From Chromera velia (lineage: Eukaryota > Sar > Chromeraceae): 64,000 bases of DNA. The notes under the pieces were generated by a model, which was not told the origin of the DNA, ran no database searches, and worked only from the letters and a program-made list of their open reading frames with translations. The position numbers and the translations under genes were made by a program. Below, piece by piece: positions 16,279 through 64,000 of this stretch (the stretch's first letter is position 1; the number at the start of each line of letters is the position of its first letter). The stretch is taken from NCBI GenBank assembly GCA_018398765.1, contig JAHBMJ010000001.1:138909-202908 (forward strand), read 5' to 3'.

Positions 16279-16428
16279 CTGCATCTTATTGACGACTTCT
16301 GGTTAAGCCTCTGCCGGTCCCAGGTTGGCCTCCCCCAAACCTCTCCAAGGATTCTTACCCTCCTTGAGTTTGGTATCCTACCCGGAGCCGCAACCCTAGC
16401 AGAAAGAGCGCTCAGGTTCCTGTGGGGA

Positions 16429-21815: not shown

Positions 21816-22065
21816 GTACCGTCGTCTCTACCACAACTGCTGGGACTTTACCAGGGCTAGCCAGGGCTCTATGCACCCTGATGGGTGCAAACTACTACAA
21901 CACCTGGGAGCATGAGCTCCCAACTGCCATCGCGGGTCAACCCTGTGTAAAGTAAGTGGTTCTTTCTTTTCAGACTCGCGCTGACTTTGCATCATACAAA
22001 AATCTTTTCTTCGTTCTCTACGATGCAAAGTTTAACTTTGGACCAGCTTTTTTTACTCATTTCCC

Positions 22066-22210
22066 TTGCTTTCTTTCTTTCTTTCTTTCTTCCTTCTTTC
22101 CTTTCCATTTTTCGTTCCATCTTTCTTTCTTTTTTTCTTTGTTTCTTTCTTTCTTTTGTTTCTTTCTTTCTTTCTTTCTTTTTTTCTTTCTTTTTTTCTA
22201 AGACTAAGAC

Positions 22211-22242
<32 letters not shown>

Positions 22243-26295: not shown

Positions 26296-29200
26296 TTATC
26301 CTCCCCGCCGATCAGTTGATCCTCCCAAACCGCGACGACTGGTCCCCGGGGGGCGCTTTGCCGCCTGATGCTCTCCCTCGGCCTGTGGCTCCATCTCGAA
26401 CTCCCCTCCCCCGATCTCTCTCTCACTTCCACCTTCTCCCTCTATCTCGGTTTCAAATGGGGCACCGATCATGCGGTTAATTGAGACCGCACTCGAGAGG
26501 GCACTGGGGGCGGGACTCCGGTTGCCCCCGCGGTCGCTGCTTCCCCCCTCGCTCCGGGGGGCGGCAGGCACAGGCAGACGGACCTGGACGCTGCTCCCAC
26601 TCCCTGCAGCGACCCACCCACTGGCGTTCAAGTTCGAGTTCGAGTAACTGTTCTGTGCGGACAGCCCCCCAGCTCTCGAGCCAGTGTGCTCAGCCCGAGA
26701 CGGCATGATGACTCCACGAGACGAGGTCCAAACGATCTCATCTGTCGCCCTCACAGCCACCACAATCTCAGGTTCCTCCTCCCCCATGCTGTTGTTGCTG
26801 CTGTCGGTCTGAGGGCTCCCCCCGTTGAGACGCCGGGACCCTTGGCGACTCGCTGCACGCTTCGGCTGCTTCCGTCCACTCTTTGTGGGACTCTGCTGAG
26901 GGCTCTGCTGGATGTACGCATAGAAGGGGCCCTGCACCGGCGCCCCCCGGAACTCCGAAGGGTCGGGGCCCTGCCACACGTAGGAGGCCCCAGTCGAAAT
27001 CGCGGCAGCTCTTCGCGTTTGGGGACTTCCGGCGATTCCTCCCATTTCGTCATCATAGGACGCTCTCCTATTCGAACGTTGACCCGAAGAGGAAGAGGAA
27101 GAGGAGGTTCCTACCCACCCACCACTTCCCCCTCCTCCTGCTGCTGCTCCCGCCGCTTCACCACCAACCGCTTGAGCGAGACGGTTGGATGCCTCACTCC
27201 CTCCTCCACCCTTGCTGGAGTTTGCAGAGGGGATAAACATGACAGCGAGACGCCCCTCAGGTGTGAGGCAGAGCTCAAACTTCCCCTGCTGACGCCTTCG
27301 AGACGATCGGCCAGTCATGGCAGCCAGAGAGCGAACTGTGAAGTCCCCAACCGCTGCGGCCATGTCTCTCAGACGAGACCTCACTGTCTCCCCCCCGCTT
27401 CTCTGCCCTCTGCTCGATCCTCTACTGCTGTTACTTCCTCCTCCTCCTCTCTTGTTTCGTCTGCTTCCAGAAGCACCCCCCCCGTCTCTCTCTCTCTCTC
27501 CGTCTGCACCACCACCAAAAAGCGCAAACCGCAGAGACCTGCCGGTCTTCCCCCCCCCATGATTGCGTGTCGTCATCGGTTGCCTCTCATCAGTCACCTC
27601 AGGGTCGTCTGCATCGTCCCGCACACCCGCACCCGCCCCCGAGACCGCCCCCCCGCTGGCAGAATTTGTTTCCCCCCCCGCGTCTTTTAATGCTACTTTG
27701 ATCTGGGGAATGTCAAGCTCCTCGGACACCGCGGTCATCTCCGAGTCGCTGCCTCCGCGCCGCACAGGGGACGGGAGACCAGCAGCCACAGGGGTTGCAG
27801 GTTCTGCCTCCATCCTCATCTCCTCCTCCGTCGCCGCCACTGTAGGCGTGCACCACACAAGCCTTTCCCCCCCATCTGCCCAAAGCTGTGCCTGGCCCGT
27901 GGAGGCATCAAGCGAGAGGTACGCATTCGAGTCTCGTGCGTGCATCCACTCGCCCCCTCCCTCCAGGAAGCACCGTGTGTCGAGAGGGAGACGGGAGCCC
28001 AGATGGGTACGCGAGTCGAGAAACACAATTTGGGAGGACGTCAGGGGTGATTTCTCTTCGGCAGCCGCAGCTCCCGCAGCAACCACCGTCTTATTCCGAC
28101 AGCAACAGCACCAGACGAGGAACAGGACAGCTAGAAGGATGCACAGAGGAACTGCGACAACCACCGGGATGAACCAGGGACAGTTCACCACAGACGCGGC
28201 ACATGCATCCCCCCCCTCCCCTGAGGTCTGTTCTTCTTCGGTCGGGCTCTCTGGAGGAAGTTCTTGGACAGGACGCTGCTGCAGTGGGTCCTCAGCTGAG
28301 GGTGTTGCCGCGTCTCCTCCTTCATCTTCAGGAGAAGGGGGGACTGTCTCACTGCCGTCGGAGATCTCCACGGCTGTGGACGCGGAGAGAGAGAAGTCCG
28401 TCAGGTGGGAGCACGCGCACGTGACTGTGGGCCGCTCACTGCTGCTGCTACTGCTTGCCCACCCGGAAGGCCACGTGACACCCCTGACTGTGCAGCCCTC
28501 CGAGGCCCACGCACTCGCAGTCTCGTCAAGGAATCGACAAAAGACCGGCTGCTCCACGCGTCTGACGGCAGAAACCCTCCATCGGAGAGTTACCCCCCCG
28601 TCTCCTCGGAGCTCCCACTCAGGCGGTGCCCCCTGTCTGAAGGCGGTTGCAATCACCTGATCTTGGACCGGCATTGATACCTCTATGGGGGGTCCGTGCA
28701 CGTTGTTCAGACTCACCGAGTCACCGCACCGTCGGAAATTCACCGACACAACCGGACCCACGATCCCCCCCTCTCCATCTGCGCTCCCGAAGGTCTCCTC
28801 TGTCCAGGGGTTCAAAGGATTCTCCGACACTTCCAGGGTGATGGTAGGAGCGTTGATCCTTCCCCCGCAACGGGCAGCAGGCATCGAGGTGTCCTCGTCC
28901 AGCGCCATCGACTCAGAGGCACTCCAGAAGGTGTGCAGGGTCTCACCATGCCAGAGAACGGACACACCAGAGGAAGTGTCGACTGCAATCTGCGTGTCAT
29001 TTGTCATCGACGATGGGGGAAAGGCGACTGTGCTGATTCGCATAACGGGATTCCCATCTGTGCTGCCAATCTGTTGTTCCCGCACCCCCGCCGTGGCACC
29101 CACCATGCCTTCAATCGATCCAGCCTCGCCTCCACCCCCTTGCAAGAGACGGATGCGCACCGAGCCGCCGACCCCGCCTCCCGAGGTCGGAGCCGTGGAT

Positions 29201-29583
29201 GACAAGACAGTGAGGCGCTTCATGGCCACATTGAAAAGCTCTTCAATCACCTGAGCCCGGGGGGCACCTGGGATCTCCAAATCGTCCCGAATTCTCAACA
29301 CAGGACCCGCCCCCCGCCCCTCTGCCAAAGAGGAGCTTTCATCATCGCTCTCCCCCATTGTGTGTCTTGTGGTTACTGCATCTACAGCCTCAGCAAGAAG
29401 CTTCATGGCCCCACTCATAGCAGTCTGCAGTGCTGAGCGGACTTCGTTAGGCAGGCTCTCGTCCTCCGCGTTCGCCCTTGCATTCAGCAGATGCTTCCCC
29501 CTCTGGAACGCCCTCTCTCCTGCCACCAGAGTCCGGAAGGTGAGATCGAGGTCGATGATGTCAAGACGACGCCCTAGGGACAA
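26296..29583 (-). CDS. Receptor terminal exon: GAIN-like region, GPS, transmembrane helix, cytoplasmic tail
   Basis: A single 3,288-bp exon begins in phase 0 at [11 protein letters not shown] and ends at TAA 26296. Residues 1-120 are helical and charged, as in the upstream half of GAIN/REJ-type regions. A GPS motif (about residues 349-400) has CRFLDE, a GC pair, a Trp, and CACSHLTDF; the HL-T cleavage triad is at about 28399-28407. A Pro/Glu-rich spacer of about 70 residues follows, then a transmembrane segment WFIPVVV...FLVW (about 28111-28176) capped by CCCCRNK. The tail of about 600 residues is low-complexity (Gly, Ser, Arg) with no kinase or other enzyme fold that I recognise. Adhesion GPCRs have seven helices after GPS; here only one is seen. 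Confidence 0.85.
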   Translation of the reverse strand: MSLGRRLDIIDLDLTFRTLVAGERAFQRGKHLLNARANAEDESLPNEVRSALQTAMSGAMKLLAEAVDAVTTRHTMGESDDESSSLAEGRGAGPVLRIRDDLEIPGAPRAQVIEELFNVAMKRLTVLSSTAPTSGGGVGGSVRIRLLQGGGGEAGSIEGMVGATAGVREQQIGSTDGNPVMRISTVAFPPSSMTNDTQIAVDTSSGVSVLWHGETLHTFWSASESMALDEDTSMPAARCGGRINAPTITLEVSENPLNPWTEETFGSADGEGGIVGPVVSVNFRRCGDSVSLNNVHGPPIEVSMPVQDQVIATAFRQGAPPEWELRGDGGVTLRWRVSAVRRVEQPVFCRFLDETASAWASEGCTVRGVTWPSGWASSSSSSERPTVTCACSHLTDFSLSASTAVEISDGSETVPPSPEDEGGDAATPSAEDPLQQRPVQELPPESPTEEEQTSGEGGDACAASVVNCPWFIPVVVAVPLCILLAVLFLVWCCCCRNKTVVAAGAAAAEEKSPLTSSQIVFLDSRTHLGSRLPLDTRCFLEGGGEWMHARDSNAYLSLDASTGQAQLWADGGERLVWCTPTVAATEEEMRMEAEPATPVAAGLPSPVRRGGSDSEMTAVSEELDIPQIKVALKDAGGETNSASGGAVSGAGAGVRDDADDPEVTDERQPMTTRNHGGGKTGRSLRFALFGGGADGERERDGGGASGSRRNKRGGGGSNSSRGSSRGQRSGGETVRSRLRDMAAAVGDFTVRSLAAMTGRSSRRRQQGKFELCLTPEGRLAVMFIPSANSSKGGGGSEASNRLAQAVGGEAAGAAAGGGGSGGWVGTSSSSSSSGQRSNRRASYDDEMGGIAGSPQTRRAAAISTGASYVWQGPDPSEFRGAPVQGPFYAYIQQSPQQSPTKSGRKQPKRAASRQGSRRLNGGSPQTDSSNNSMGEEEPEIVVAVRATDEIVWTSSRGVIMPSRAEHTGSRAGGLSAQNSYSNSNLNASGWVAAGSGSSVQVRLPVPAAPRSEGGSSDRGGNRSPAPSALSSAVSINRMIGAPFETEIEGEGGSEREIGGGEFEMEPQAEGEHQAAKRPPGTSRRGLGGSTDRRGG

Positions 29584-32500
29584 CTGCAATCAATCAACCA
29601 ACCAATCCATCAGTTGATCAATTCATGAACCAACCAACCAACCAACCAATCAATCAATCAGTTTATTCGGATCAAACACCCGAGGAGGACCTGATCGGTC
29701 GAAAGAGAAAAAAAACTGGACAGAGGGAGAGAGAGACGGAGGCTGACCATTGAATTTGCTCCCTCAAGGAGCATGTCCAGAGTGTTCACTGTTCTGTCAA
29801 GGACTCCCGTCGGAAGATCAGTCACCGCACTCGCCAGACCGAAGATATTCCCTGCCACTTCCTGGTTGACGATGTCAATGGCAGACAATGCAACGTTCTT
29901 CGCAGACTGCCGGGCCGACTGCTGCGTGGAGTTTTGGGCTTCAGGCATGTCAAGAATCCCGGCAGTCCGGGCAGTCTCCAGCGTCCATGCCCTCAGAAGG
30001 TTCACCTCGTTCATCGACTGCGTTCATAAACGAATCATTTTAATGATTGAATGAATCAATCGGACAATCAATGATCGGTCACTTGATTGTTGCCTTTCTC
30101 TCACGCTCATTTTCTCTCTGCGGTTCTAGCTGTCTTGAGAAAACCGAAAAACGGATAATGACACAGAGTAGATGTACGATACACGGGGACCTGCCTCAAT
30201 GTATGGGGGATACCCTGGGGGTCTATCTTGCACTCCCCTACCTCATCAGCGGTGGATCGGGACCCTGACGTTGACGTTTGCAGTCGGCGGCGTCGTGTTC
30301 CTCCCTCTCCTTGTCCGACCCCCACGGAGACGCTGTCCTCTCCCCCAAACCACCCCTTTCGCCTCTCAGCCAGAACGTGGACGTCCGAGAGCTGCAGGCG
30401 GGTCCGCAGAGAGACCTCTCCCACCCGGGTGCCATACGCCTCCACGCTGACAGAGCACGCGGGGTCAGTCGATACAGAGCAGTCGAGAGACGCGTCGGGG
30501 GCCTGGGGGATCGTCAGGCCGACGGGGGCGCTGTCGACGGGATGCGACCGCCGCCCCCACCGGTCGATCGCTTGGAGGCTGAACACGTACCAGCCGTCGT
30601 GACCTTGGAGCGGCTGAATGTATGGTGGCAGGCAGGCAGGCAGGCAAGAGAACACAAGTGCAAGTAGACAATGAGAAAGAAATCGAAGGAATTGATCGAG
30701 AAGCCGATCATGCAGAGGAACCGAGAAAGAGGGGAACAAAGGGGATTCGGCATGCAACACTGAATGAAACAGATGACTGCATGCAACGTCAGCAGATATC
30801 TCTCTGCCTACAATTAAGGGAGAATTGAATTGAAGGATCGACGATTGAATGAGTATTCCCCGAGACAAATTGAGGCTGACCAGGATGGGCAGAATCCTCA
30901 AAGACTGCCCCTGCAGAACCCTACCCAGATAGACTACAGGGGGCGCGTCCACCCCCAGCACCGGATTGCCTTGAGAGTCTGCCACTTCCTTGACCCAAAG
31001 AGCGAAGGACAAAGGCAGGAACTCAGCAGGGGCCACCCAGTCGACATTCACGATGGCCACAAGGGAGGGCACCCCAGGAGGGACATTCCTCCAGTCCCCG
31101 TTCTGGATCGAGAACGGGGCTCCGTTTGAAGAGGGGGGCACAAGGAGCTCGACGTCATCTGCATGCAGAAAGACAGAAAGAATGAAAGGAAGCAAAATGG
31201 AAAAGGAGCGCACACAGCAAAGCAACACGGCCGACTCGGAGACATCCAAACGCGCACAGAAAAGGACTGCCGAAGCGCTGTAAATTGAGCAGTTTGGCAT
31301 CGCAGTAGAAAGATGCTCTAATCTGTCTGTACAAGAGGCGAAAAACCGAAGCTGCTGCCTTTCTGCCTTGATTGATTGATTGCCCCCTGCAGGATGACTG
31401 CTGACCGAAGCACCGGACCCCAGGTCCAAATTTCCCCTCAGGGCACTGGCAGGTGAACGATCCGAAGGCCTCTGTGCAGGTGGCCTCGGCATCACAGTTG
31501 TGGAGGCCCTCTGTGCATTCGTCGACGTCTGCACGTGAAATGGATGGACTGAATCAAGGCGGTAGAATTGCATGAATTCAGACCAACAGCAGTAAAAATC
31601 AGGAAAGACGAAGAAAGCGGGTCATTTAAATGCAGGGAGAAGAAAAGAAACAAACAAGTCAATGCAAAATGGTTAAACTAGTGCAGACTGACTTTCACAC
31701 TGCGCCCCGTCTCCTCTGAATCCATCCCTGCATCTGCACGTCTGCTCAGAGAGGTACCCGATGACTGTCGCGTGGGGGGAACACCAGTCGTACTGAACGA
31801 TCGGCGGCTCCCCTGCATACACATATATTCATATATACGCATATGCACAAACGATTTCGATTTACTTATCCCGGCCCGCTTTTTAGATTTTCGTCGTCGT
31901 CTCAAAGGACAAACCGTATTGAATGCCTGTGAAATTTTGGATTCGCCAAAACACATCAGAAAGCGAGAGCAACAACAAAAACAATACGGCCTCAAGCAGA
32001 CAGCACGTACGCACCGACCTGTGGTGCACGTGCGACCGTCCCCGAAGTACCCCTGTTTGCACTTGCAGAAGAACTTGAAGAAGGAGCCCTGAGAGTCGTC
32101 CCAGTCCACGCACTCTGCATTGCTCGGACAGTCGTGGACGCCCTCAGCACACTCGTCGATGTCTGCAGACATGCATATGAACATGGGCAGACAGGCAGGC
32201 AGGCAGACATATCGATCGGAAGAAGTCACGAACAGTTCCGGCGGGCAAACATCACTGATACAGACAACATCTGTCCACCTTGCAGAGACCAAAATATCCA
32301 AAAATGCGAACAAAGCTCCATTTCGAACAAGCGTTCGAGCCTTCCAACTGAGTCGCGAACGAAGCTGAATGTCCAACCAGAAAGAGACAAAAGCTACTTC
32401 ATTCCGACTCCCTCCCTCCCTCCCTCCCTCCCTCCCTCCCTTCCTCACTCACTCACTCACTCGAGCAGGGCACTCCAGGGTCAGGGCATCTAAATCCGTC

Positions 32501-35500
32501 CTCCAATCTCCCTATCAGATCGCAGCCGTCTCCGGACTCTTCGTTCCCGTCGTCGCACTCCTCGGGGCCTGTCAGGAGACCGTCTCCGATGTTCACTGCA
32601 CGCGAATACTCAGTCAGGTGTGTGCGTGCATGCGTGTCAGTGCGACCTTGTGATTCACTGTCCATGTCGATAAAGGAGAGAGCAGAGGAAACGATGCACA
32701 AGTGTGGAGAAAGATCCGCAAATTTTATATCCGCTTGACAACTGCCTCTAGACTTCCGCACAAATAGACCCGCCCAAAGAAAAAAGAACACTCGTAAGTC
32801 GACATACCTTCGCAGACCTGCCCGTCCCCCTCATACCCAAGGTTGCACGTGCAGGTGTAGCTGCCGATCGTGTCCAGACAGGTCGCCAGAGTGTTGCACA
32901 ACGGACTCTGTGCAGACGAACACTCGTTGATGTCTGCATGCAGTCGCGGAGAGAAAATGGACATTTGTTTCCCGCAGACTGTAGACACGTTTTGTGATGA
33001 TCTGTACATCATCGGGGCATTCAGCACGTCAACGTTCTTCTACGCCGTTCAAAAGAACCCATTCTGGGGCGAAAGGGCCTCTGAGAGAAAGACCCACACA
33101 ACCACGTGCCCCTCCTTTCCCGAAAGGCGCAATCGCACACTCACTCACTCACTCTCGCACAGGGCGCCTTCCACCAGACAGGCAAATCCAGGTTCAGGAA
33201 TCCCGATGGCAGAGCACCCGTCGAAGCTGTCACCGTTCCCGTCGTCGCACAACTCCACACCGGGGGCGATGATGCCGTCTCCCACGAGGGCTGCATGGAC
33301 GCATTTGTTTTCATACAGAATTCTTTATTTATTCATACAGAATAAATGCATTCATACAGTATGAATGCACACACAAGGGGCGATGATGCCGTCTCCTACA
33401 AGGGCTGCATGCTCAGACACGCCATGCAGTCCGGCAGGGAGGTAATCATGAGGCAGGAAGGAAACTCGGCGATCGACGGACAAGGAAAGAAGAAGAACAA
33501 GTCAAAAGGCAAAAGCAAGAAAGAAATATGGAACATCTAAAGCTATCCCTCCTCCATTCAGCCTCTCTCTGTGAAGCGACCCCCCTGCACAGGAACCCTC
33601 CTCTGCATTTCTACCGCGCCACCTTGGTTCGTTCATTTTTGTCTTTCTTGCCTGTCTGTCTGCCTGGCTCACCCACTCACTTCCTACATGTCAAGTTTCC
33701 CCCTGCCTTCCTCTCTGCCTGCCTGACTGACTTGAGCATGTGGTTCCCGGAGGGGCGGCTGGGTCCTCCCAGTGCCACCCGAGGCGGCAGTCACAGGAGA
33801 AGCTGCCCTGGGTGTTGGTGCACGAGGCAAAGTCTGAGCAGTCGTCGGTGCCCCTGGCGCACTCGTCGATCTCTGCATGCAATGAGAAGAGAAGATGTGC
33901 ATGTCCGTCCAAAGATTTCCTTCCACACAGACTCACACAAACACACAAAATCCATGGAAGAAGAGAATTGACAGCGGGACGAATCACCGTGGAAGGACAA
34001 GAAATTGATATTGACAAACAGCTTCATGCAATTACGGCTCAGGCTCTATTGATAGAAAAGGCATCGCCTGCCCCCCCACACAAATAAATAGCCACGCACC
34101 AGAGCAGGAGACGCCATCCCCCTCGAATCCCAAATTGCACGCGCAGGTGAATCTTCCCTCCAGGGCCCCCTTATTTTCGCAGCTCGCTTGGGAATTGCAG
34201 TTGTGGACCCCCAGCAGGCACTCGTTCTTGTCTGCATGCATGCACAGATTCGTTCAAGTTGGGTGCGTGCAGAGGGGGGTTCATGTTTGGAGAGAGAGAA
34301 TTAAGCAAGAGGAGGAAGATGCAATGAGATGATTGAAGGTCAAACTCCCAAATCAGTGGAGCACTAATTTGAATTGTTCCCGCGAACTGCCGCCAGACGC
34401 ATTTTGTTTGAGAAGAATTTTCTTCTGCAAGATTTGATTGATTTGCAGACCTGCCGGATACACTCAAATGAAATCACGGCAAGACAGAGGTGAAATGCCG
34501 ACACAACTGCATGCCGACAGACCTTGACACACAGAGGGGGCGTTGTCGAAGTTCTGGCACTCCCAGCCTTCCTCCACACGGCCCTCGAAACAACCGTCGT
34601 TTGCGTCCGTGTCCCCGTCGTCGCACTCCTCCCATCCGACTCGGGTGCCGTCTCCAAACGTCGCTGTGTGGATGCATTGACGTGCAGGAGAATCATCAAC
34701 TACGATGTTTCTTTTTGACTCTCTACTCAAATATCAATGGGGTGACAAGCGCTTCAGAGTGTTCATGCTGTGAAACCTCATAGAGACTCCTTTTGAATCT
34801 TTCACTCAGACGAACGAGCTAGCGTGCTGAACACGCGTGTGTCAAAGAGATCCTTTCTAAAGTCCAAAAAAATGCCGATCAGATGGACAGAATCCGATGC
34901 ACCCTGACAGTCACACTGAGGAAAAAGAAGACTGACGAATGCAGTCGCTGCAGAGCGTCGGACATTCCCACCCGTCCTCGATGAGGGAAGTGGAGGAGCA
35001 CCCGTCTCCACTCCTAGAGTTGCCATCGGCACACTCTTCGCCCCCAACAAGCACGCAGTCCCACACGTTGGCTGCATGCATGCAGGTTTGTGTGCGGGCA
35101 GGGGGAGACAAGATGAAACAAATCAATCACTGATGAAGAGATAAAGACCGATGAAGAAGTAAGAGTCAGCGATTAAGCATAGGAACGAAACTAGCGAGGA
35201 ATGTGATAATGGAAGCAAGCAACTTGGACTGCAGCACAAAACAAGTTCCATACACAATCCATCCGTTTACAAGAGGCATTTCTGACGTGCCACTGACGTC
35301 CGCAGTGTTCAGTCGAGGCAGAGCAGATGAACCCTTCTTCCACGCGGCCATCCGGAGAGCAGCCGTCCCCTCCCGCACTGTTGTTGTCGATGCACCCGTC
35401 CCCCTCATTCAACACGTCTGCAACCAACCAAGCAAACAGCAGGCAAAGGGACACAAGGGACGCATTTTAGATGAATTCAGGCTCAAGGTGTAGGGAGGGA

Positions 35501-53500: not shown

Positions 53501-56500
53501 GCACTCGTTCACATCTGCACTCTCATACACTCACGTACAGAAACACACAGATCCACACATGCAGACAGCCAGGTCTAGTCACAATCAATGGAATCTTTTC
53601 ATCTTTTGGATGCATTCCGGGATCTCCATGAGTGCAAATAATGAAGATGAATCTTGTTCTCATCCGTTGACTTCATAGATTGACGCAAAAAGCAAAGATG
53701 TAGAAATGAAGAAGAAAATAAATGGAAGCAGGGATGAAATTATTTAACAGACAGAGAGAAAGACAGGTCAGACTCACATTGTCAAGCAAACCAAATGCAA
53801 CGGTGTCTTAAGTCTGAGACTCGCACCCTGACACACAAGCATGAATTGGAAAAGACTCCCCTAGCTCATCCTGAAGAAGAGCGGATAACCGCTCTGCATG
53901 CCTCGTCAGAAACAATGCAAAGCTTTACACGACTTTTGAAGAGGACTTGAAGGTGCGAGCCTTTATCGCTGACCCGAGCAGGCACCGCCATCCACAGGAC
54001 AGTCCCAGCCATCTTCCACGTTGCCGTCGGAGTCGCAGCCATCTCCGCTCTGAGTGTTGCCGTCGTCGCACTCTTCGTCTCCGGCCACGTCTCCGTCACC
54101 AACCACGGCTGCACTCAGACCGGGCCATGATAAACGCAATAGAAGCAAAAACTTCATTCACACCCCCAAAGAAGCAAAAACGCAATTTAGAAGGTGGAAT
54201 CAAACAAGTAGGCATTCCGCCTCCTGATCTGTTGTTACAAGAGGTCTCCTCCACGTGCCATCTCCACATGAACTTTCTCATTTCCCTTTCCAAATGGACT
54301 CAGCGGGGTGACTCACTTTGACACTCTGTGCCTGTCGCCTTGGAGCCGTCGCTGGTGGTGTCGCTCCACCCGTTCTTGCACGCGCACGAGAACGACCCCA
54401 TGGAGTTTGTGCACACGGCATTCGGGACGTCGCAGTTGTGGCTGCCCTCTTGGCACTCGTTGACGTCTGCAGGCGAACAGGTAGCTCGAAAAAACAAAGT
54501 AAAACAGAGGATAAAAGGAAGGAGAGAAGGTAGACTGAGGAAATCAGGAAAGAGCGGCTCGAGGTTGAATACAGACTCTCCTGACACAAAAAAAACACAG
54601 CGTTTAAAAAACAATAACAGTATTGAACATGCCAAGCAGCTCACCCGTGCAAGTATGGCCATCTCCAGAATAGCCGGTGTTGCACGCGCACTCGTAGCGT
54701 CCTCCCGATGGCGGCAGATTTGTGCAGGTGGCCTTTGTAGAGCACGTGTGCTTCGGGTCGTTGTCGTCACACTCATTCAGGTCTGCAGCAATTAATTGAA
54801 ACACAGCGACAAACAGATGAAAACAATGAACACGGCTGTCAGCGTAAGCCCATTATGTATGTATGGCAGAAACAAACCATGGAAGGGGAGGTTTCGCTGC
54901 ATTCAAGAATGGAGCAGAGAGCTACAGGCTGCCTGGTAATTGATGCAGACAAATCATCGCTCGCTCTTGAATGTCCTTCCGGACTCACCTGTGCACACAG
55001 AAGGCTCCCCCGTGCACGTCCACCCCTCTTCTATTTGACCGTTGTGGCACCCGTCTCCTGCATCTGTGTCTCCGTCGTCGCAGTTTTCGTCTCCGACAAT
55101 CTTGCCATCGCCATGAGTTTCTGCAGACAGGGAACGGGTCGACAAGAAGCCTCGAAAATTCTTTTTGCAGAGAGAACGGGTGGTGTCCTGCCTCTGATTG
55201 ATGTGTGATTGTTCAGTCTGAGCCAGGAGGGTGACGTGACAAATGTGTAGTTACCTGGGGGGTCGGCCTATCTTTTGTAATCAGGGTGCTTTCACAGATG
55301 AGCACACACAAGTCTCGAGGAGGCCAGTTGTGCCATATTGCTTCTTTTTCTACTGCCGTGACTCACAAACCAGGAGAATGCATTCTACGCTCTTCTTGCT
55401 CGACAGGAATTAAGAGATTCGCAACGTGGAGGTGTCTGCATGCCGTCTCAACGTTTCCTACTACTCACGGTTTTCCTAATTGTGACTCACCTTGACACGC
55501 CTCGCACACGGTCGGGCATTCCCACCCAGATTCAATTTGGTGTGTGAAGCTGCACCCGTCTCCGTTGTTGCTGTTGCCATCGGTGCATCTCTCGGAGCCC
55601 ACCAAGAGACAATCGTTCATCAAAGCTGCAAATTGGCACAAAGACGCGCACCTCTCTCAACTTAATTGCAATACTCAGAACATAAAGCACCCCTCGAAGA
55701 TTCCCTCTTCTGTACCCTTAACTGTTGTCGGAAACAAACCTAGAGCTTATCTTCTAGGGATGAAGCACTGAAAGCTCTTTGGTGGCTCAGAAAGGAGCCC
55801 ACATGGAGCCCGTCAGTGAGTTTGGCTATACACACTCACACGCAATCAAGTGTGTCATGAATTCTGATATGTGTGGATGCGAACACGGTGCATGAGGCAT
55901 CCGGTGGCATCAGGCCGCCTACACGGAAAACAGACCCTAGTCATTCGATGACAATCGTTGTCTGCATAGGCACTGATGAACGTGGTCTAAGAGAAAAAGT
56001 CTACTCACGTGAGCAATTGCCGCCATTCTGAGGGCAGGTCCATCCAGGTTCAGTCCTGCAGCTGCTGGAGCACCCGTCTCCGTTGTTGCTGTTGCCATCG
56101 TCGCAGGTCTCCGAGCCCCGAACCGCGCTGTCTCCACAAATAGCTGCAAGAGGATGAAAGAGCGGATCAAAAGTCCAAAACATACGTACAATGTGAGTCA
56201 CGTGAGGGCATGTACAAGCATGTGCGCGTGCATGTCACGGACAGATCCTGAGAGTGACCTCATAGACAGCGAAAGGCAAAATAATTAGAAATCACCACGT
56301 TTCTTTTTGGATTGACTGTTAAGATGACAGTTCCTCATGTTCTTGTCGGACAGCTTGAGAGCTACTATGCATCCACACACCCACCGGTACAAGGGCCACC
56401 ACCGGGCAGACAGGTGTAGCCGTCCTCCACTTGGCCGTCAGAGTCACACCCGTCTCCGCTCTGAGTGTTGCCGTCGTCACATTTTTCGTCTCCGACGACC

Positions 56501-59500
56501 TTTCCATCCCCGATGATTTCTGAGAGACGAGGGCACAAAAGTAATTGAACGAAAGGAAAAGGAAGGAAAGAAGTTTGCAAACGTTTGTGTTTCTCTCGGA
56601 CGTCAGCAAAGCGAACATTTATGTCAAAGTCAGGAGAATCAGATTCCAGACGTAAAAAAGCCGTGATGCGTTTCCAATCTGTCACTTCACTCAAAATCTG
56701 ATGCACAAACCAGATCCCCAAAAGAGTCACGGAAAGAAACTCCAGTCGAGCGCAACTGACCGTCGCAAGGTTGACAGACGACAGGACAGTCCCATCCATC
56801 CTCGATGACATGCGTCCCTGTGCAACCGTCTCCGTTCAGTTTGTTCGTGTCCGTGCATTCTTCGTCTCCCACCAGGCGGCAGTCGTCCCGGTCGGCTGCA
56901 AAAATGCATCCATGGGTGTCAAGAATCAAAAAGGGATGCTTGAATCACGGAAACTTAAACGGATAATCAGGGGTGCGAGCTAAATTGAGCGAAAGGAACG
57001 TTCACTGAATTGAGAAAGGAAGACCGACAAATTCAAACATAGACAAAAATGGATACAATATTGAACTTCGATCTACTGACGGCTGCACTCCCCTCCGTCC
57101 TGAGGGCACGTCCATCCCGTCTCCGTCTGGCAGGTACTGGAGCACCCGTCTCCGCTTTCGGTGTCCCCGTCGTCGCAGGTTTCTGTTCCGTGTCGCTCCC
57201 CGTTTCCGCAAATGGCTGCGTCAGGGACACACACACAAGATCGCAAAACAAGGGAATCGCTCCAAAATCCACGGAGGCAACACATTCGAGATGCGACTGT
57301 AGGTGTTCACAAGCTGATGTAAATCAGGAACACAAAAGGATCGAGAATAATTTGAAAAGAAACCACGCGCACATATTTATACACCCCCAACACACTTTCC
57401 TGGGGCTTCCTGTCTTTCCTTTTGCGGGGCTCTGTCCCCTAGAGACTCCGCTGCACCCACATTACCCCCCTTCCTCCCTTTAGACACACAGACATCAAGC
57501 TCACCTGTACAGCCGAGGCCGTCTCCCTGCCAACCGTGGTTGCAAGCACACGAAAACCCCCCGTTGGCGTTTGTGCACGTGGCGTGTGCATCGCAATTGT
57601 GCGTGGCGTCGCTGCACTCGTCAATGTCTGCAGGGATACACAGTCACAGAAGGCTTATTTCAACACTTCACAAAATCCTCGGAGCAGTGCATCAAAACAG
57701 GCAAGCAGACAGGGTACATTTTCCCTTCCTCCCTCACCTGTGCAAGGCCCCGCAATCCCCGGACAGGTGTAACCGTCCTCCACCTGCCCATCAGAATCGC
57801 ATCCGTCCCCGCTCTGAGAGTTCCCGTCGTCGCACTCTTCGTCTCCGGCCACCACACCATCGCCGACCACGGCTGCAGTGACACACAGAACAAACGAACC
57901 CACCGCAAGCACACATACACACCAACTCACTCACTCCCTCACTTACTCACTGACACATTCATGGAAGATTATCTTTGCAACCTCACAGAGTAACAAGCCC
58001 CGACATCGTTCACAGTCCACACCTGCTCCTCGCTTGACCCCTCTTCTCTTCTCAGTTCGCCGTCCAGTCCAACGTTTTGACTTCATCTTGATCGTGTTTT
58101 CGAATCTTCTAGACTCACGCGGATTCCCTCAGACACCTCGGCTCACTAACGTCACCCCATACAGACTCACTTTGACATTCTGTGCCTGTCGCCTTGGAGC
58201 CGTCGCTGGTGGTGTCGCTCCACCCGTTCTTGCACGCGCACAAGAATGACCCCATAGAGTTTGTGCACACGGCATTCGGGACGTCGCAGTTGTGGCTGCT
58301 CCCTTGGCACTCGTTGACGTCTGCAGGCGAATATGCAACAGAAATTTGAGAAAGTCGAGACTCCTTTTTGAAAGGAAGAAAGAGACAGGTTCACTCTTTG
58401 AATGCACGTCGGCCTGGAAATGGTGAAAGGCAAAGGGGCGGGGGATACACAAAAAATGGGAACCGCGCCGTGGATCTCCCCAGGTGCAGCCATAATGTTC
58501 CCAGCCCGAACTCGCCTGTGCAGACATGGCCGTCTCCACTCCAGCCCAAATTGCATGCGCACTCGTAGCGTCCTCCCGACGGCGACAGATTTGTGCAGGT
58601 GGCCTTTGTAGAGCATGTGTGCTTCGGATTGTTTTCGTCGCACTCATTCAGGTCTGCAGGCAGATGCAGGTCCATTTTGAAAGAGAAGCAAGGATCGAAA
58701 GAAAGCATTGTTGATCCTTCCTTTGCGTCGGAAGGAAATTTGTTCCAAGACGCTGTCACAGAAAGGATCCTTCCAGCAAGTACCCATTCCTAACTACCGA
58801 TGCGAAGCACTTTTCACTCGTTTTCATCTCTTCTCTCACTCACCTGAGCACACCGACGCAGTCTCTCCAGGCGGCACTGTGCACGTCCACCCGTCCTCCA
58901 CCTGACCCCCATAGCACCCGTCTCCCGGATCTGTGTTGCCGTCGTCGCACTCTTCGTCTCCCAACACGTGACCGTCATCGGGAGTCGCTGCACTCGTTCA
59001 TTCAACCAAGCAGCACACACAGACAGAAAGGTGGATAGATGGAAAGACACGCAGGCAGACGAAGAGAGCTACTTGAAAACAATAGACTCTTATTGAGTGC
59101 TGAAAGGCAAAAGCAAAGATGAGTCACTATCCTCTCACAGAGACGCCCCACACGAAAAGATTCTCGCCCACTGACTGACGCGAGCACTCGCCGCCATTCT
59201 GAGGGCAGGTCCATCCAGGTTCAGTCCTGCAGCTGCTGGAGCACCCGTCTCCGTCGTCGGTGTTGCCATCGTCGCAGGTCTCAGGGCCTTTTGTCTCTCG
59301 GTCTCCACAGACAGCTGTGGGAAAGGAAGAGGGAAAGATGGTGTAGGTAATCTAACAGACAGGATGCACAATAAATTGCAAGAAGCAGCAGAGGCATTGA
59401 CAAACAAAAACTGTTCCGCATCTGCTTTCTTCGACCAGCAATCATACGTTCCTTCCAACCCACCATTGCAAGAGAGGCCGTCCCCTTGCCACCCATGGTT

Positions 59501-62500
59501 GCACGCACAAGAGAACCCTCCATCGGAATTCGTGCAGGTGGCGTGCATGTTGCAGTTGTGGGAGTTGTCGGAGCACTCGTCAATATCTGCAGCTAGTATG
59601 CACGATCGAGCTTCCTTCCATGCATGTTAGCTGAGTCGCCGAACATCTCCCAGTGCCACTTTTTCCTAAAGGATTGGAAATATGTGGAAAAACTCAGACA
59701 TGGTGCGCATGAAGTCTTTGATGTGCTGAAAATCCACGAAGACTACCTGTACAAACTTTTGCCCTGTAAAACAATAAGCCATAACCACAGTCTGCCCACC
59801 ACAAGCCTTCTGCTGAGTTTCTCTTTGTATGACAAAATCCCCCCCTCATCAATCGGCTCTGTTTTTCAGGCATTCCTGCCGTCTGTCTCACGTCAGTGCC
59901 TGAATGTTTATCCATTCGCTTACCGTCGCGTCTCCATCCACAGACGCAAAGAATGCCTGTCTGATGAAAGGATTGCTGGCGACCCAACGCATTTTGTATA
60001 TATATTGTGCAACGAGCACTCACCGACCTGAGCACGCTCCCCCGTCCACTGGGCATGTGTACCCAGGCTCCTCCTGTCCGTTGGAGTCACACCCGTCTCC
60101 ACTCTGGGCGTTCCCGTCGTCGCACTCCTCGTCTCCGGCCACGTGCCCGTCTCCCACCACGGCTGCAGGTAGTTGCAGAGACAGACAGAGAGAAAGAGTA
60201 TTCATAGCGAGTAAGGGTGATCAGTGAAGGAACACTTTAATTTCTGTCGGGAAGGAGAGCATCAGATTGGTAGGGAGACGAGGCTTTTGTCTTACCGGGG
60301 CCTTCTTTCACTTGACCTCTGTACATGCACTTCTTTGTATTCCTCCCAAATAGACCCAGGAGGCTGACTCACTTTGACATTCTGTGCCTGTCGCCTTGGA
60401 GCCGTCGCTGGTGGTGTCGCTCCACCCGTTCTTGCACGCGCACGAGAACGACCCCATGGAGCTTGTGCACACGGAATTCGGGACGTCGCAGTTGTGGCTG
60501 CCCCCTTGGCACTCGTTGATGTCTGCAAACAAGTAGCTCGAAAAAACAAAGTAAAACAGAGGATAAAAGGAAGGAGAGAAAGAGACTGGGGAAATCAGGA
60601 ATGAGCGGCTCGAGGTTGAAGACAGACTGACCTCACACGAAAAAATCACAGCGTTTAAAAAACAACAACAGTATTGAACATGCCAAGCAGCTCACCCGTG
60701 CAAGTATGGCCATCTCCAGAATAGCCGGTGTTGCACGCGCACTCGTAGCGTCCTCCCGATGGCGGCAGATTTGTGCAGGTGGCCTTTGTAGAGCACGTGT
60801 GCTTCGGGTCGTTGTCGTCACACTCATTCAGGTCTGCACAGGGCGAGAAACAGAAAAAAACAATGAACACGGCTGCAAGCATTATCCGATGGTAGTACCA
60901 ATATGTGTAGAAGAAAAAGACATGCAAGGGAACAGATGTGTTCCCGATGTTCAAAAGTGGAGCAGAAAGTTGCAGCCTGCCTGTCTGCACACTCACCCGT
61001 GCACACAGAAGGCTCCCCCGTGCACGTCCACCCCTCTTCTATTTGACCGTTGTGGCAACCGTCTTCTGCATCTGTGTCTCCGTCGTCGCAGTTTTCGTCT
61101 CCAACAATCTTGCCGTCTCCGTGGATTTCTGCAAGCAGACAGCCACATCTCGAATGCATCTGAGCGCTCCACTACAATTGAACATCTGGAACCACTTTTC
61201 ATTCATTCATGCAACGCTGAGTTTCGAGTCCTGTCTCTCAGTGGAAGGATGATTGAGGAAGTTGTTTCTGCTGTGCCGCTTCTTTGGTGCATGAGAGACA
61301 GAGCTGAGACTGGGCAAGACTGCCGACTGACCAGTGCACGGTTCACAGACAGTAGGACAGGTCCACCCAGACTCGATCTTGTGGGCAGCGCTGCAGCCGT
61401 CTCCGTTTTGGCTGCTTCTGTCGGTGCACTTTTCGGGACCCACCAGCAGGCAGTCGTCGAGGATCGCTGCGAGAATGCATGAAGGAGGATCTCCGGGAGT
61501 TTTCCGAACAAGAACAGAGGAGATTCAGACAGAGACAGAAAGGTCGGAAGGAAGAAGCAAAGAGAGACATACACAAACAGACAAGCAGAATGAATTAAGC
61601 ACAGTAAGAGGAAGAAAGCGGAAGACAGAAAGAATGAAGAAAAGGAAGAACAACCGCGAGAGGCAACGACCGGACAACGCAACAGAAGGAGTGAGACAGA
61701 GAGACAGGTACTAGGGGAAACCAGACAGCAGCCATGCTAAGCCTGTATCTAAGAAAGGGCAAACTCACGATGACACTCCCCGCCGTTCTGAGGACACGTC
61801 CATCCCGTCTCCGTCTGACAGGTACTGGAGCACCCGTCTCCGCTTTCGGTGTCGCCATCGTCGCAGGTCTCGTCCCCGTGTAGCTCGCTGTCTCCGCATA
61901 CCTCTGCAAGGAGATCCAAAAAAAGTATCCTTCCTGAGTTTACTCTCTTCTTTTTCTGTTCTTCACGTATACATGCGATTTGTGTGTCGGTACTCCTCTG
62001 ACAATCAATGCCAAGAAGCCCACAATGAAATAAAATGCTGTTACATCCGAAAACACCGCATTAGCTGTGAAGACAGCTTGGCCCGAACGAACGAATATCG
62101 ATGCTCTAGCTCTCACATACGCACGCACCTGTACAGGGTGATCCCGCGTTCAGGCACTCCCACCCGTCTTCCGGCTGTCCCTCAGAATCACATCCGTCTC
62201 CACTCACAGCGTTACCGTCATCGCACTTTTCGTCTCCGACAATCTCCCCGTCTCCGATGATCTCTGCAAGGAGTAGGCAATGAGGTCACGGCCGTATGAA
62301 TTTCTTTCACAAATTCTGAATGAGAAAGCTCTCAAACTCCTCACGACTTTACAGCAACACTAAATGAAATGGAAAGGCTGGAGAAGTTTCATGAAGCCTT
62401 TGAGGACCGTACGCCAACAGATCTGCAGATAATCTCGTGACTCACATCCACGAAACGTCCACTCACTCACGTACCTTCACAAGGCCCGCACACAGTGGGG

Positions 62501-64000
62501 CAGTCCCACCCTGTCTCGATAGAGTGCGTACTGCTGCACCCGTCTCCGTCCATCCGGTTACCGTCAGTGCATCTCTCTGAGCCCACAAGGAGACAATCGT
62601 CCCATTTGGCTGCAGAGAAGCACGTACAGCAAAGCAAAAAACAATTTGCTCACTTACAGACAGATCATCCGAGGACCCACATTCAAATGAACACCCCCAG
62701 CACAATACATGCATATATTTTCATACAGAATAAAATAAATAAATAGAATAAATAAATGAATGCATTCAAATCGACTCCCTGAGCACAAACAGGGAAATTG
62801 TGAGAAGACTTTGGGTTCAATTTATGTGCACGGAAACATCTTTCCAATCCCTCTAGTTCGAGTTCAAGTCGCGCATGCATCAGATGCCCTCCCTGCATGC
62901 CTGCGGGTCCGTCTATGTGACTCACGTGAGCACTCTCCTCCCCTCGGCAGGCAGGGAGAGCAGCGGTAGTCAACCACCCCGTACTTGTACGTGTACCGAC
63001 AGGGATCCCCTCCGATCGTGTTGGCCATCGGCAGAATACACTGGTTCTTCCCATTGCAAGAAGACCGCGCGTACTCAGTCACATCCAGGTGGCAGGTGAT
63101 GTCTGTGAGGTGTCCCCCCCGGTAGAAGGGGCACGTGACTCTGTCGTTGCGGCCGTACCACGCCTCTGTCACAGCGATCACCTGGCCAGGGGGACACGTG
63201 AGGGGGTTCCAGCAATCGCCAACTGCAGCCCCGCACTGATTCCGGTGGGCGGGGTGGGTCTCGCAGATGATCGTCTCCTTCTCCGTGACTGCAGGAATGC
63301 AAAGATCCACACAAACAGACGCAGACAGTCCAAACGTACCCAAACGCTCAACCATAGAGATGCCTACAGAGAGATGAGTCAGAAAACTACACTGCTCGAA
63401 AAGATCCGACAGTCATCGACTCACATGAACAGTCGCCAGCTGTCACGGGACAGTTCCATCCTTCCTCAAGCGCACACGTGTTTGAGCATCCGTCGCCACT
63501 CTGTGTGTCCCCGTCGTCGCATGACTCGGATCCTGCCATCCACCCGTCTCCACAGGTTGCTGCGCTCAAATGAAATTGGGAAAGGAGGTGGAAGGATTCG
63601 AATGCCAAAAACTGCCTATCGGGGCACAAACTTCATGCGCACACCCCATTCTGACAATCTTCCATGAAGACCCTGCAGCGACTGGACCTTTTTTCAAGAA
63701 GATGATCGATTTCAGACTGATAAGGAGATGCCTTCGCAGAGGGAAATCGGAAAGAAGCACGACCCTCGATCCTTTGACCGATACCAGCGCACGAATCAAA
63801 AGAGCCAGCGGACCTGCACAGGACAACCCGTTTCCCTGCCATCCCAGCTGGCAGGCACAGCTGAAACTTCCATCTGAGTTCGTGCACGTCGCCTGAGCGT
63901 CACAAGTGTGCGCATTGGAGGTACACTCGTCGATGTCTGCAGAGACGATTCGCGTCATGAACAAGTAGACGGACAAAACGCATTACCTGTACATTGCAAA
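26296..64000 (-). CDS. Giant modular surface receptor: EGF / DUF4215 / SUEL lectin / GPS / single TM (5' end outside window)
   Basis: At least 92 exons on the minus strand encode about 5,430 residues in this window, and a partial exon at 63987-64000 shows the gene continues upstream. Each module exon (120-150 bp, phase 1-1, length divisible by three) encodes one calcium-binding-type EGF (D-I/V/L-N/D-E-C starts) or one DUF4215 repeat (GDG..xGDE.CDDGN..xGDGC..xG..EDGW.C). One 363-bp exon encodes a SUEL-type lectin. The four last exons carry a membrane-proximal region, the GPS motif, one transmembrane helix and the tail. Nearly all introns end TGCAG. No premature stop or frame break was found, so the gene looks functional. 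The architecture suggests a type I membrane adhesin or receptor with a calcium-dependent, disulfide-rich ectodomain. That all exons belong to one transcript is inferred from uninterrupted phase, order and spacing; two adjacent genes cannot be excluded without RNA data. Confidence 0.85.
29748..30017 (-). CDS. Receptor exon: membrane-proximal helical segment
   Basis: 270 bp, phase 0-0: [20 protein letters not shown]...[19 protein letters not shown]. Probably alpha-helical, like the segment upstream of GPS in GAIN- or REJ-containing receptors. Acceptor CGCAG at 30018-30022, donor ATG|GTCAGC at 29747. Confidence 0.75.
30191..30613 (-). CDS. Receptor exon: extracellular beta-rich segment
   Basis: 423 bp, phase 0-0: [23 protein letters not shown]..., then two cysteines in a [13 protein letters not shown] stretch and a basic patch [18 protein letters not shown] resembles a strand of a fibronectin-III-like or REJ-like fold, but no family is called. 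Donor AGGCAG|GTCCCC at 30190. Confidence 0.7.
30881..31158 (-). CDS. Receptor exon: start of membrane-proximal region, phase switch 1 to 0
   Basis: 278 bp. It enters in phase 1 ([13 protein letters not shown]) and leaves in phase 0 (RILPIL|GTCAGC), so this is the exon where the cassette phase ends. No cysteines and no EGF or DUF4215 features; [21 protein letters not shown] suggests a beta-sandwich. It cannot be shuffled without a frame change, unlike the upstream cassettes. Confidence 0.7.
31406..33290 (-). CDS. Receptor exon block A (6 divergent EGF and DUF4215 cassettes)
   Basis: Exons, low to high coordinate: 31406-31528 EGF ([13 protein letters not shown]); 31693-31812 EGF-like without the DxxEC start ([23 protein letters not shown]); 32019-32162 EGF with a longer middle loop ([15 protein letters not shown]); 32461-32595 DUF4215 ([24 protein letters not shown]); 32808-32933 EGF ([14 protein letters not shown]); 33153-33290 DUF4215 ([26 protein letters not shown]). 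These membrane-proximal cassettes are the most divergent, so they are probably the oldest part of the array. Confidence 0.8.
33376..33414 (-). pseudogene. Partial copy of the 5' edge of DUF4215 exon 33153-33290
   Basis: The bases GGGGCGATGATGCCGTCTCC and the following acceptor are repeated from 33264-33296 with two changes. In gene sense it reads [10 protein letters not shown] after a TGCAG acceptor and then stops matching. It lies in the intron upstream of the intact exon and has no donor, so it is an exon fragment. Confidence 0.7.
33732..35719 (-). CDS. Receptor exon block B (6 cassettes, one shortened)
   Basis: 33732-33872 EGF ([14 protein letters not shown]); 34100-34231 EGF ([13 protein letters not shown]); 34523-34663 DUF4215 ([24 protein letters not shown]); 34937-35071 DUF4215 W-type ([23 protein letters not shown]); 35298-35417 shortened DUF4215 (120 bp) that starts DVLNEGDGC and lacks the first CGDG..G.E.CDDG half; 35576-35719 DUF4215 V-type ([18 protein letters not shown]). 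All keep phase 1. Confidence 0.8.
35969..37656 (-). CDS. Receptor exon block C (5 cassettes; partial H-L-Q-V block)
   Basis: 35969-36115 EGF Q-type ([12 protein letters not shown], long C5-C6 loop ending GTECQ); 36284-36421 EGF L-type ([15 protein letters not shown]); 36613-36744 DUF4215 H-type ([25 protein letters not shown]); 37060-37194 DUF4215 W-type ([17 protein letters not shown]); 37516-37656 DUF4215 C-type with an insert ([10 protein letters not shown]). In protein order 36744 down to 35576 (the last in block B) reads H-L-Q-V, a truncated copy of the six-exon block. Confidence 0.85.
37950..42153 (-). CDS. Receptor exon block D (13 cassettes, W-I-C triplet array)
   Basis: 37950-38084 (I-like), 38342-38473 EGF, 38676-38810 I, 38986-39120 W, 39302-39436 C, 39619-39753 I, 39919-40053 W, 40297-40431 C, 40594-40740 I, 40898-41032 W, 41304-41438 C, 41655-41789 I, 42019-42153 W. 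All but 38342 are DUF4215. W starts .DDCLLVG, I starts EI.GDG.I.GDEECDD, C starts VCGDG..LG.ETCDDGD and ends SRE. In protein order this is W-I-C three times, then W-I. The I exon 40594-40740 is 147 bp, with extra residues [10 protein letters not shown] before the last cysteine. Confidence 0.85.
38095..38190. repeat. Imperfect intronic tandem repeat (about 24 bp)
   Basis: AAAGACAGAGACAGATCAAA-type units repeat about four times in the intron upstream (gene sense) of exon 37950-38084. Confidence 0.7.
42483..47992 (-). CDS. Receptor exon block E (16 cassettes)
   Basis: 42483-42617 C, 42804-42926 S (EGF), 43180-43314 V, 43522-43671 Q, 43889-44026 L, 44192-44323 H, 44521-44643 S, 44784-44918 V, 45039-45188 Q, 45399-45536 L, 45839-45970 H, 46206-46340 W, 46492-46626 C, 47130-47264 C, 47462-47596 I, 47858-47992 W. 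In protein order: W-I-C-C-W, then H-L-Q-V-S (lacking its C exon), then H-L-Q-V-S-C. The 503-bp intron 46627-47129 lies between the two adjacent C exons and is where an I or W exon may have been lost. Confidence 0.85.
48162..55120 (-). CDS. Receptor exon block F (18 cassettes, three six-exon blocks)
   Basis: 48162-48296 C, 48544-48666 S, 48793-48927 V, 49246-49395 Q, 49553-49690 L, 49972-50115 T, 50308-50442 C, 50667-50789 S, 51358-51492 V, 51713-52115 Q (interrupted by the N gap; 150 bp once the duplicated overlap is discounted), 52386-52523 L, 52688-52831 T, 53013-53147 C, 53392-53514 S, 53974-54108 V, 54317-54466 Q, 54645-54782 L, 54989-55120 H. In protein order: H-L-Q-V-S-C, T-L-Q-V-S-C, T-L-Q-V-S-C. 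The V exons at 48793 and 53974 encode the same peptide. Confidence 0.88.
48947..49045. repeat. 28-bp intronic minisatellite, three units and a partial fourth
   Basis: The unit starts AGACAGAAGCGGAAAGATCA and is 28 bp long. It lies in the intron just upstream (in gene sense) of a V-type exon. The paralogous intron near 54120-54160 has a single, diverged AGAAGCAAAAACTTCATT copy. Confidence 0.85.
50788..50930. repeat. ATTC microsatellite with a partial copy of an exon edge
   Basis: (CATT)n runs at 50793-50830 and 50843-50860 abut the acceptor of the S exon 50667-50789. At about 50885-50908 a second copy of the first exon bases plus acceptor (GTGCACTCATTCACATCTGC on the plus strand) occurs inside the intron. 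Confidence 0.7.
51821..52001. other. Assembly gap (181 N), probably an unmerged contig overlap
   Basis: The 72 bases before the gap (51749-51820) are repeated exactly right after it (52002-52073). Removing gap and repeat leaves one Q-type EGF exon of exactly 150 bp (108 + 42), the length of all its paralogues but one. The gap is therefore likely artificial and the true sequence shorter by 253 bp. Confidence 0.85.
55491..62609 (-). CDS. Receptor exon block G (20 cassettes)
   Basis: 55491-55625 W, 56009-56143 C, 56385-56519 I, 56761-56895 W, 57081-57215 C, 57505-57627 S, 57738-57872 V, 58171-58320 Q, 58516-58653 L (GC donor), 58844-58987 T, 59180-59314 C, 59464-59586 S, 60028-60162 V, 60373-60522 Q, 60696-60833 L, 60997-61128 H, 61332-61466 W, 61769-61903 C, 62129-62263 I, 62475-62609 W. 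In protein order: W-I-C-W, H-L-Q-V-S-C, T-L-Q-V-S-C, W-I-C-W. Introns 55121-55490, 55626-56008 and 59587-60027 exceed 300 bp and hold nothing recognisable. Confidence 0.88.
62926..63288 (-). CDS. Receptor exon: SUEL-type (galactose-binding) lectin domain
   Basis: The 363-bp exon (phase 1-1) reads [19 protein letters not shown]..., then [21 protein letters not shown], then [19 protein letters not shown]. The pattern ..A.YGR.D...C......C and D.C....KYL..Y.C is that of SUEL/rhamnose-binding lectins, which bind terminal galactose or rhamnose. Eight or more cysteines. It ends with GGECSRE, the same tail as the C-type DUF4215 cassettes, so the exon end was built on that cassette's splice border. 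It is the only lectin in the window. Confidence 0.85.
63425..64000 (-). CDS. Receptor exons at the right edge: DUF4215, EGF, partial exon
   Basis: 63425-63559 is DUF4215 ([28 protein letters not shown]). 63814-63936 is a calcium-binding-type EGF ([15 protein letters not shown]). 63987-64000 is the 3' end of another exon (..CTG with donor CAG|GTAATG), showing that the gene continues upstream. Confidence 0.85.

Follow-up and report, generated by a model that had tools for sequence, protein, structure and literature searches.

A single minus-strand gene of Chromera velia, the greater part of which lies in a 64,000-nucleotide stretch of contig C1 (C1:138,909-202,908; hereafter the window), probably encodes a giant type I surface receptor that binds glycans, serves adhesion and is held together after predicted self-cleavage at a GPS. 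Read from the sequence, the locus has a single open spliced frame, a set order of modules, domains of the lectin and GPS families, one helix, a conserved tail and a paralogue; expression, cleavage, ligand, spacer role and signalling we infer. The first-pass annotation had placed a giant receptor at 26-64 kb. The modules, a lectin, the GPS and the transmembrane (TM) helix are indeed there, but the gene starts 14.7 kb past the right end of the window. Our continuous gene model runs from a start at C1:217,608 to a stop at window position 26,296 and comprises 123 exons, 23,622 bases and 7,873 codons, its sole stop being the terminal one. L009 and L010 denote stretches of contig C1 beyond the right end of the window, and full coordinates are window numbers continued past 64,000. 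The features referred to below are as follows:

L010:3491-4700, first coding exon, with the start codon at C1:217,608
L010:2108-3229, second coding exon
L009:9081-9428, first SUEL lectin exon, outside the window (Pfam PF02140, 61.4 bits)
63937..64000, minus strand, intron at the window edge, from which the upstream part of the gene runs on into L009 and L010
62926..63288, minus strand, second SUEL lectin exon, galactose/rhamnose-binding type (Pfam PF02140, 59.4 bits, E 4.7e-16)
31406..63936, minus strand, in-window array, for which the model has 54 DUF4215-like and 29 EGF exons of one module each (exon tables)
31693..31812, minus strand, partial EGF-like exon lacking the first cysteine (three-frame reading, splice signals, spliced model)
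30881..31158, minus strand, exon C1, pre-GPS (spliced model; no Pfam match)
30242..30613, minus strand, exon C2, pre-GPS, kept in the paralogue (spliced model; no Pfam match)
29748..30017, minus strand, exon C3, pre-GPS, with phase 0 borders, kept in the paralogue (spliced model; no Pfam match)
26296..29583, minus strand, last exon C4, with pre-GPS region, GPS, TM, tail and stop (open frame; 1,095 codons plus stop)
28387..28539, minus strand, GPS motif ending CACSHLTDF, that is C-x-C-x-H-L-T (Pfam PF01825, 25.6 bits, E 1.8e-5)
28114..28170, minus strand, core of the TM helix, 19 residues (hydrophobicity)
26299..28113, minus strand, predicted cytoplasmic tail of about 600 residues (conserved blocks with low-complexity stretches between them)
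C3172, 30.95-62.41 kb, plus strand, paralogue sharing the design of the window gene from N-terminus to tail

Module exons were built around motifs with phase-1 borders required, and the N-terminal, lectin and C-terminal exons were added by eye from three-frame views and then joined. The 122 introns of the model have 121 GT donors and one GC donor, the latter at window 58,515-58,514. When no phase was demanded, [TC]GCAG acceptor sites at most 65 bases upstream of 115 motifs fell in phase 1 in 109 of 110 cases and in phase 0 in the remaining one, and the first GTNNGT donor downstream of 90 motifs was in phase 1 for 76 and in other phases for 14. Exons C2, C3 and C4 are each entered in phase 0. 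Two modules stand outside the model, an EGF exon broken by a stretch of N in the assembly, which lies within the array, and a DUF exon at 35,417-35,298, so the true protein should be somewhat longer than 7,873 residues. Gaps between exons have a median of 213.5 bases (range 96-893); those of 893 and 504 bases span the two left-out modules (the former the EGF exon), and among the gaps with no known module in them the largest is 568 bases. The N-terminal region comprises 776 residues over two exons, including an apparent signal peptide read by eye, and these exons gave no Pfam match up to E 1. Pfam searches of the spliced product recovered SUEL, GPS, EGF and DUF4215, the families that had earlier been named from motifs. 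An automatic gene model for the locus may be present in databases. Adjoining the gene, at window 10,647-17,217 on the plus strand, is a LINE-type retrotransposon remnant, in which 15,289-15,942 matches reverse transcriptase (PF00078, 58.5 bits) and an endonuclease match stays below the cut-off. About 700 bases of CTTT repeat (window 22,065-22,763) lie just downstream of the gene and have the strongest strand skew in the window.

Over the whole model, 73 exons are DUF4215-like and 40 are EGF exons, and a motif count on the coding strand of full coordinates 31,001-76,000 gave 74 and 41, respectively. Module motifs were absent from the antisense strand of the same interval, from both strands of window 1-26,000 and from 20 dinucleotide shuffles. 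Within the window the modules add up to 86 (54 DUF4215-like, 29 EGF, one partial EGF and the two left-out exons), and the earlier estimate of about 80 was a fair one. The plain alternation of EGF and DUF4215 described at the same time does not hold; the order is instead one of two higher-order cassettes, A-B-C and 1-2-C-3(-A-D), and every module occupies a phase-1 exon of its own. Labels were assigned with our own simple patterns, A-D standing for DUF4215-like modules, 1-3 for EGF modules, L for a SUEL exon, X for a long exon starting with a DUF-like half and e for the partial EGF. The 117 labels read:

CXABALBAABC12C3AD12C3AD12C3AD12C3ALBCABC12C3AD12C3ABCABC12C3AD1C3AD12C3ABCAABC12C3C12C3ABCABCABCABC3CABC12CBC33C3C3e3

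Alignments of cassette to cassette within the array (31 alignments over 350 bases) are 74-97% identical, introns included, and since copies reach 97% identity across introns, the expansion of cassettes is recent. One DUF4215 exon (L009 3,484-3,657, corresponding to full coordinates 67,657-67,484) carries an in-frame internal duplication, a fresh expansion within an exon.

We use the term DUF4215-like for a call made by motif and alignment, the Pfam cut-off being 27 bits. When two single DUF exons were scanned alone, one of type A scored 20.0 bits and one of type B gave nothing, and a spliced stretch of 470 residues scored 57.5 bits for DUF4215, over the cut-off, with Pfam marking four stretches of DUF4215, six of EGF_3 and five of EGF_CA. 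A six-frame search of the genome assembly (177.8 Mb in 4,040 contigs, as in all genome searches here) placed DUF4215 over the cut-off in at least 15 places on contig C1, among 45 matches. An alignment of 39 of the 54 in-window DUF4215-like model exons, near-identical copies being omitted, has nine invariant positions, among them four cysteines. The exon-sized DUF4215 unit aligns end to end with one solved module of pappalysin-2 (E 4.6e-9), and a pappalysin-1 module gave E 6e-6. As for the EGF modules, a calcium-binding-like pattern is found in 37 of the 40 model exons, in keeping with the calcium-stiffened ectodomain put forward by the first-pass annotation, but the EGF runs are short and the stiffening itself is presumed. 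Of the 40, 26 have another EGF beside them, in pairs apart from a single triplet at the end, and because DUF4215 modules come between these groups, any calcium stiffening would be broken up.

The SUEL lectin reported earlier is confirmed by Pfam, but there are two such domains and not one, the other lying beyond the window. Both score over the PF02140 cut-off of 31.4 bits, their exons start near residues 1,226 and 2,631 of the protein, and a genome profile search also found SUEL. The GPS with HL-T was likewise borne out, its score being over the PF01825 cut-off (22.5 bits) and reaching 25.9 bits on the spliced piece. A whole-genome Pfam GPS search (14 matches) listed neither this gene nor the C3172 paralogue; a direct scan found the GPS. 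On the strength of GPS family membership, self-cleavage is predicted between L394 and T395 of the last exon (codons 28,404-28,399). The GPS is upstream of the TM helix, and the predicted cut lies about 77 residues from the membrane. This helix contains the only hydrophobic 19-mer above 1.5 in all 7,873 residues, the presumed signal peptide staying below that threshold, which agrees with the single TM segment first proposed. A reading with several helices was rejected: comparison of the regions beyond both stop codons gave 52 short pieces (E up to 1), the best at E 2.75e-4 and of low complexity, whereas a control region gave E 5e-46. Since there is no sign of conserved exons past either stop codon, the single helix is supported.

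The pre-GPS exons gave no Pfam match to GAIN, REJ (PF02010) or other families up to E 10, in a search whose HMMER filters drop most weak matches. The best match of a last-exon profile to solved structures was at E 1.9, PLAT was found neither in the last exon (up to E 1) nor in the tail (up to E 10), and the tail had no Pfam match over the cut-off. Single-sequence AlphaFold2 models had a mean pLDDT of 39.1 for the piece with pre-GPS region, GPS and TM, in which helix 471-503 alone was confident, and of 40.6 for the tail. By eye, blocks of the tail (window 28,041-26,698, and also in the paralogue) have a loose three-fold pattern like that of bulb-type lectins. A bulb-type (B-) lectin tail was considered and rejected, as Pfam gave no match and nothing in the PDB matched at an E below 0.55, not even when the core was artificially shortened; a genome search for B-lectin gave no match, and its control likewise matched nowhere.

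The existence in the genome of a paralogue of identical design argues that the window gene is real. The first and second N-terminal exons are 68% and 59% identical between the two genes, exon C1 is 60% identical (56/94), the stretch of C2 and C3 is 49% identical in an alignment that crosses an intron, and the last exon is 54% identical by local and 60% by global alignment. HLT, helix and tail are all kept. The paralogue has 50 module motifs and two SUEL domains side by side. Although the two genes were labelled with pattern sets that differ slightly, 36 consecutive module labels stand in identical order in both, and the window gene has an extra large block of 12C3AD cassettes. Reciprocal matching against the 50 modules of the paralogue yielded 27 pairs, which agree at the ends of the array and are scrambled in the middle, as expected from cassette turnover; the longest collinear chain is 15, whereas 1,000 shuffles averaged 7.9 and reached 12 at most. 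The GPS of the paralogue scores 15.4 bits, below the cut-off, and lacks the second of four GPS cysteines. Given this loss and the modest score of the window gene itself (25.6 bits), cleavage may not be conserved.

Substitution rates against the paralogue cover the two gene ends. For the pre-GPS region plus GPS, dS was 2.3 and dN 0.26; the second exon gave 1.9 and 0.29, and the post-GPS linker 1.9 and 0.40, while in the first exon, helix and tail dS was saturated and dN was 0.19-0.55. With dN at 0.19-0.55 while dS is near or at saturation, purifying selection is indicated at both ends of the gene, the tail included. Among eight pairs within the array, a sample too small to judge, the ratio was below 0.2 in four, 1.0 and 2.0 in one each, and undefined in two. 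A third, more distant gene (C433) is 29% and 36% identical in two pieces. Read by eye, it has a GPS, apparently split by an intron (C-R-C / N-H-L-T), together with a single helix and a tail that is very acidic. At another locus, C3795, each frame holds several DUF4215 modules and the acceptor-like upstream sites have no phase preference; the phase-1 exon style is thus not shared by every DUF4215 gene in the genome. In the same assembly, light-harvesting (Chloroa_b-bind) matches, counted by exon, number 58 and alveolin/IMCp matches 11, which indicates a photosynthetic alveolate; the alveolin model also matched in one bacterial control, and the light-harvesting model in one cyanobacterium. Comparison with solved light-harvesting structures yielded no decisive match.

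We consider it unlikely that the gene is a divergent PKD1/REJ family member with one helix, comparable to sea urchin REJ1 (SpREJ1), and that its product serves as a receptor for glycans where gametes or cells meet, even though its parts come in the same order as in SpREJ1 (EGF, lectins, REJ, GPS, one TM). SpREJ1 is about five times smaller than the product of the window gene. Elsewhere in the genome, C3608, C612 and C3495 each have EGF, DUF4215 and a GPS followed by several hydrophobic segments, and C1987 has a GPS, a DUF4215 match and several such segments; in this rough scan of unspliced frames, the arrangement of the four loci is reminiscent of PKD1 proteins. C859 combines eleven EGFs with a GPS and several hydrophobic segments. 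C3801 has one EGF motif, DUF4215 and a GPS, but in the stretch covered a single hydrophobic segment near that GPS is clear. Some of these EGF/DUF4215/GPS loci are possible alveolate PKD1-like receptors. Against membership of the window gene, the pieces scanned gave no REJ, PLAT or PKD repeat match, and at C3608, the only locus scanned for PLAT, none was found in the frames. Genome-wide, the PKD channel matches are seven and weak. We did not file the gene in the PKD1/REJ family because, although its GPS is upstream of TM1, REJ before the GPS and PLAT after TM1 were not detectable.

It is also doubtful that the product is a shed component of matrix or wall, in which the GPS would set free an enormous secreted rod, the membrane stub being there for delivery only. 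Such a role would suit the huge cysteine-rich array, the stub of about 77 residues between cut and membrane, and a tail in which Pfam finds no known domain. However, a tail of 600 residues conserved between paralogues at saturated dS would be needless for a delivery stub.

That two or more adjacent genes, or an array whose exons never come together in a single message, have been read as one is quite improbable. The run of N in the array and the longest gaps, 893 bases (across the left-out EGF) and 568 bases, leave some room for it, but the frame stays free of stops across 123 exons, phase-1 acceptors were found unforced, the model contains no second hydrophobic helix, and the N-terminal exons and the GPS exon of the paralogue sit at opposite ends of one contig. 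Separate genes, which the first reading had named as the finding that would overturn it, therefore appear unlikely given one open spliced frame and a paralogue with matching N-terminus, array and C-terminus; the status of the locus as one gene, with its single helix and tail, is well supported by these comparisons. A decaying or neutrally expanding repeat locus, to which the recent duplications implied by cassettes 74-97% identical including introns might point, is very improbable, as the exons used have no stop or frame break and dN is far below dS at both gene ends.

We return to the glycan-binding adhesion receptor as the preferred reading and propose how it might work. One gene would give a type I membrane protein of about 7,900-8,000 residues, which the signal peptide would send into the secretory pathway and which would fold as a long row of disulfide-rich modules. 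Self-cleavage at the GPS (H-L|T) would produce an N-terminal fragment of about 7,170 residues and a C-terminal piece of about 700, the latter including one helix and the 600-residue tail, and the two would stay attached non-covalently. The two SUEL lectins would attach to glycans carrying galactose or rhamnose, whether on another cell or on a substrate; this ligand class is a guess taken from the SUEL family. The EGF/DUF4215 cassettes would act as a long spacer whose length shifts by cassette duplication, and force or binding could strip off the N-terminal fragment. Because there is no 7TM or channel and about 77 residues separate the cut from the membrane, adhesion, shedding or mechanical sensing through the tail would be expected rather than a tethered agonist.

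GPS-cleaved modular receptors have been studied mostly in animals and their near relatives, and the "modular exon" style is usually linked with animals. Two giant GPS receptors conserved in an alveolate alga would supply an independent case of that style. They would also offer a natural example of a receptor whose length changes as cassettes duplicate, and would allow the role of a GPS to be tested in a protein with neither a 7TM nor a channel for it to activate. Should the alga be Chromera, the pair would further bear on the surface repertoire that gave rise to the apicomplexan invasion proteins. More tentatively, and with the balance of our judgement somewhat against it, the genes could represent a class of giant self-cleaving single-pass adhesion receptors that arose independently of animals in photosynthetic alveolates from shuffled symmetrical phase-1 module exons. 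In such a class, cassette turnover in mid-array, with stable ends, might tune ectodomain length and surface identity, for example in mating, cell contact or the recognition of coral or bacterial glycans.

We know of no precedent for a protein of such size with an EGF/DUF4215 cassette array. The product carries the SUEL domain of the SUEL/rhamnose-binding lectins and the paired cysteines and HL[T/S] of the GPS-receptor motif. Long calcium-type EGF arrays on phase-1 exons are known from animal proteins of the fibrillin and Notch type, whereas the window gene is algal, interleaves its EGFs with DUF4215 and ends in a GPS and one TM. The pappalysins (PAPP-A and PAPP-A2) are secreted metalloproteases; they share one significant module match, against about 74 modules here, and no protease is seen here. 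The term DUF4215 was not found in the literature searched. Adhesion GPCRs such as the latrophilins resemble the window gene in having a GPS with HLT, lectin or EGF modules and a large cleavable ectodomain, and latrophilin carries a SUEL lectin. They have seven helices and a short tethered agonist after the cut, whereas here there is one helix, no Pfam match to GAIN and a long stub; assignment to this group was rejected because a single TM, and no 7TM, follows the GPS. A 1TM isoform is described for fly Cirl in the accessible part of one report (PMC13197933). The CRMPs of apicomplexans and chromerids are also large, cysteine-rich, EGF-bearing surface proteins, and the available text on them mentions no GPS (PMC9815656). 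As defined there, their core is multi-pass with two EGF-like domains; they are many in Chromera velia and have nine TM helices in T. gondii (PMC9815656, same portions). The window gene, with one helix only, was not placed among them. The main text of the Chromera genome paper, as far as it was available, refers to EGF expansions as data not shown and to neither GPS nor lectin (PMC4501334).

The nearest known arrangement is that of SpREJ1, which, according to the portions of PMC1934368 at hand, has one EGF, C-type lectins, REJ, a GPS and one TM. With it the PKD1/REJ family already includes a single-helix GPS protein with EGF and lectins, and the first-pass statement that no standard receptor class of this build was known has to be given up to that extent. 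The two share an ectodomain of EGF and lectin, a GPS just outside the membrane and one TM. They differ in that SpREJ1 has one EGF against about 41 here, C-type lectins against SUEL here, a REJ of which none was found in the window gene, and no DUF4215 array. The same portions of that paper place SUEL in SpREJ3 and hPKD1L2, state that PLAT is not universal in the PKD1 family and describe the GPS-cut halves of two PKD1 proteins as remaining together (PMC1934368). A 2025 choanoflagellate survey, in the part available, assigns the combination of GAIN with 7TM to holozoans and regards the GAIN domain as older (PMC12716839). Since GAIN would thus predate its joining with 7TM, a GPS without 7TM in an alveolate fits this order of events.
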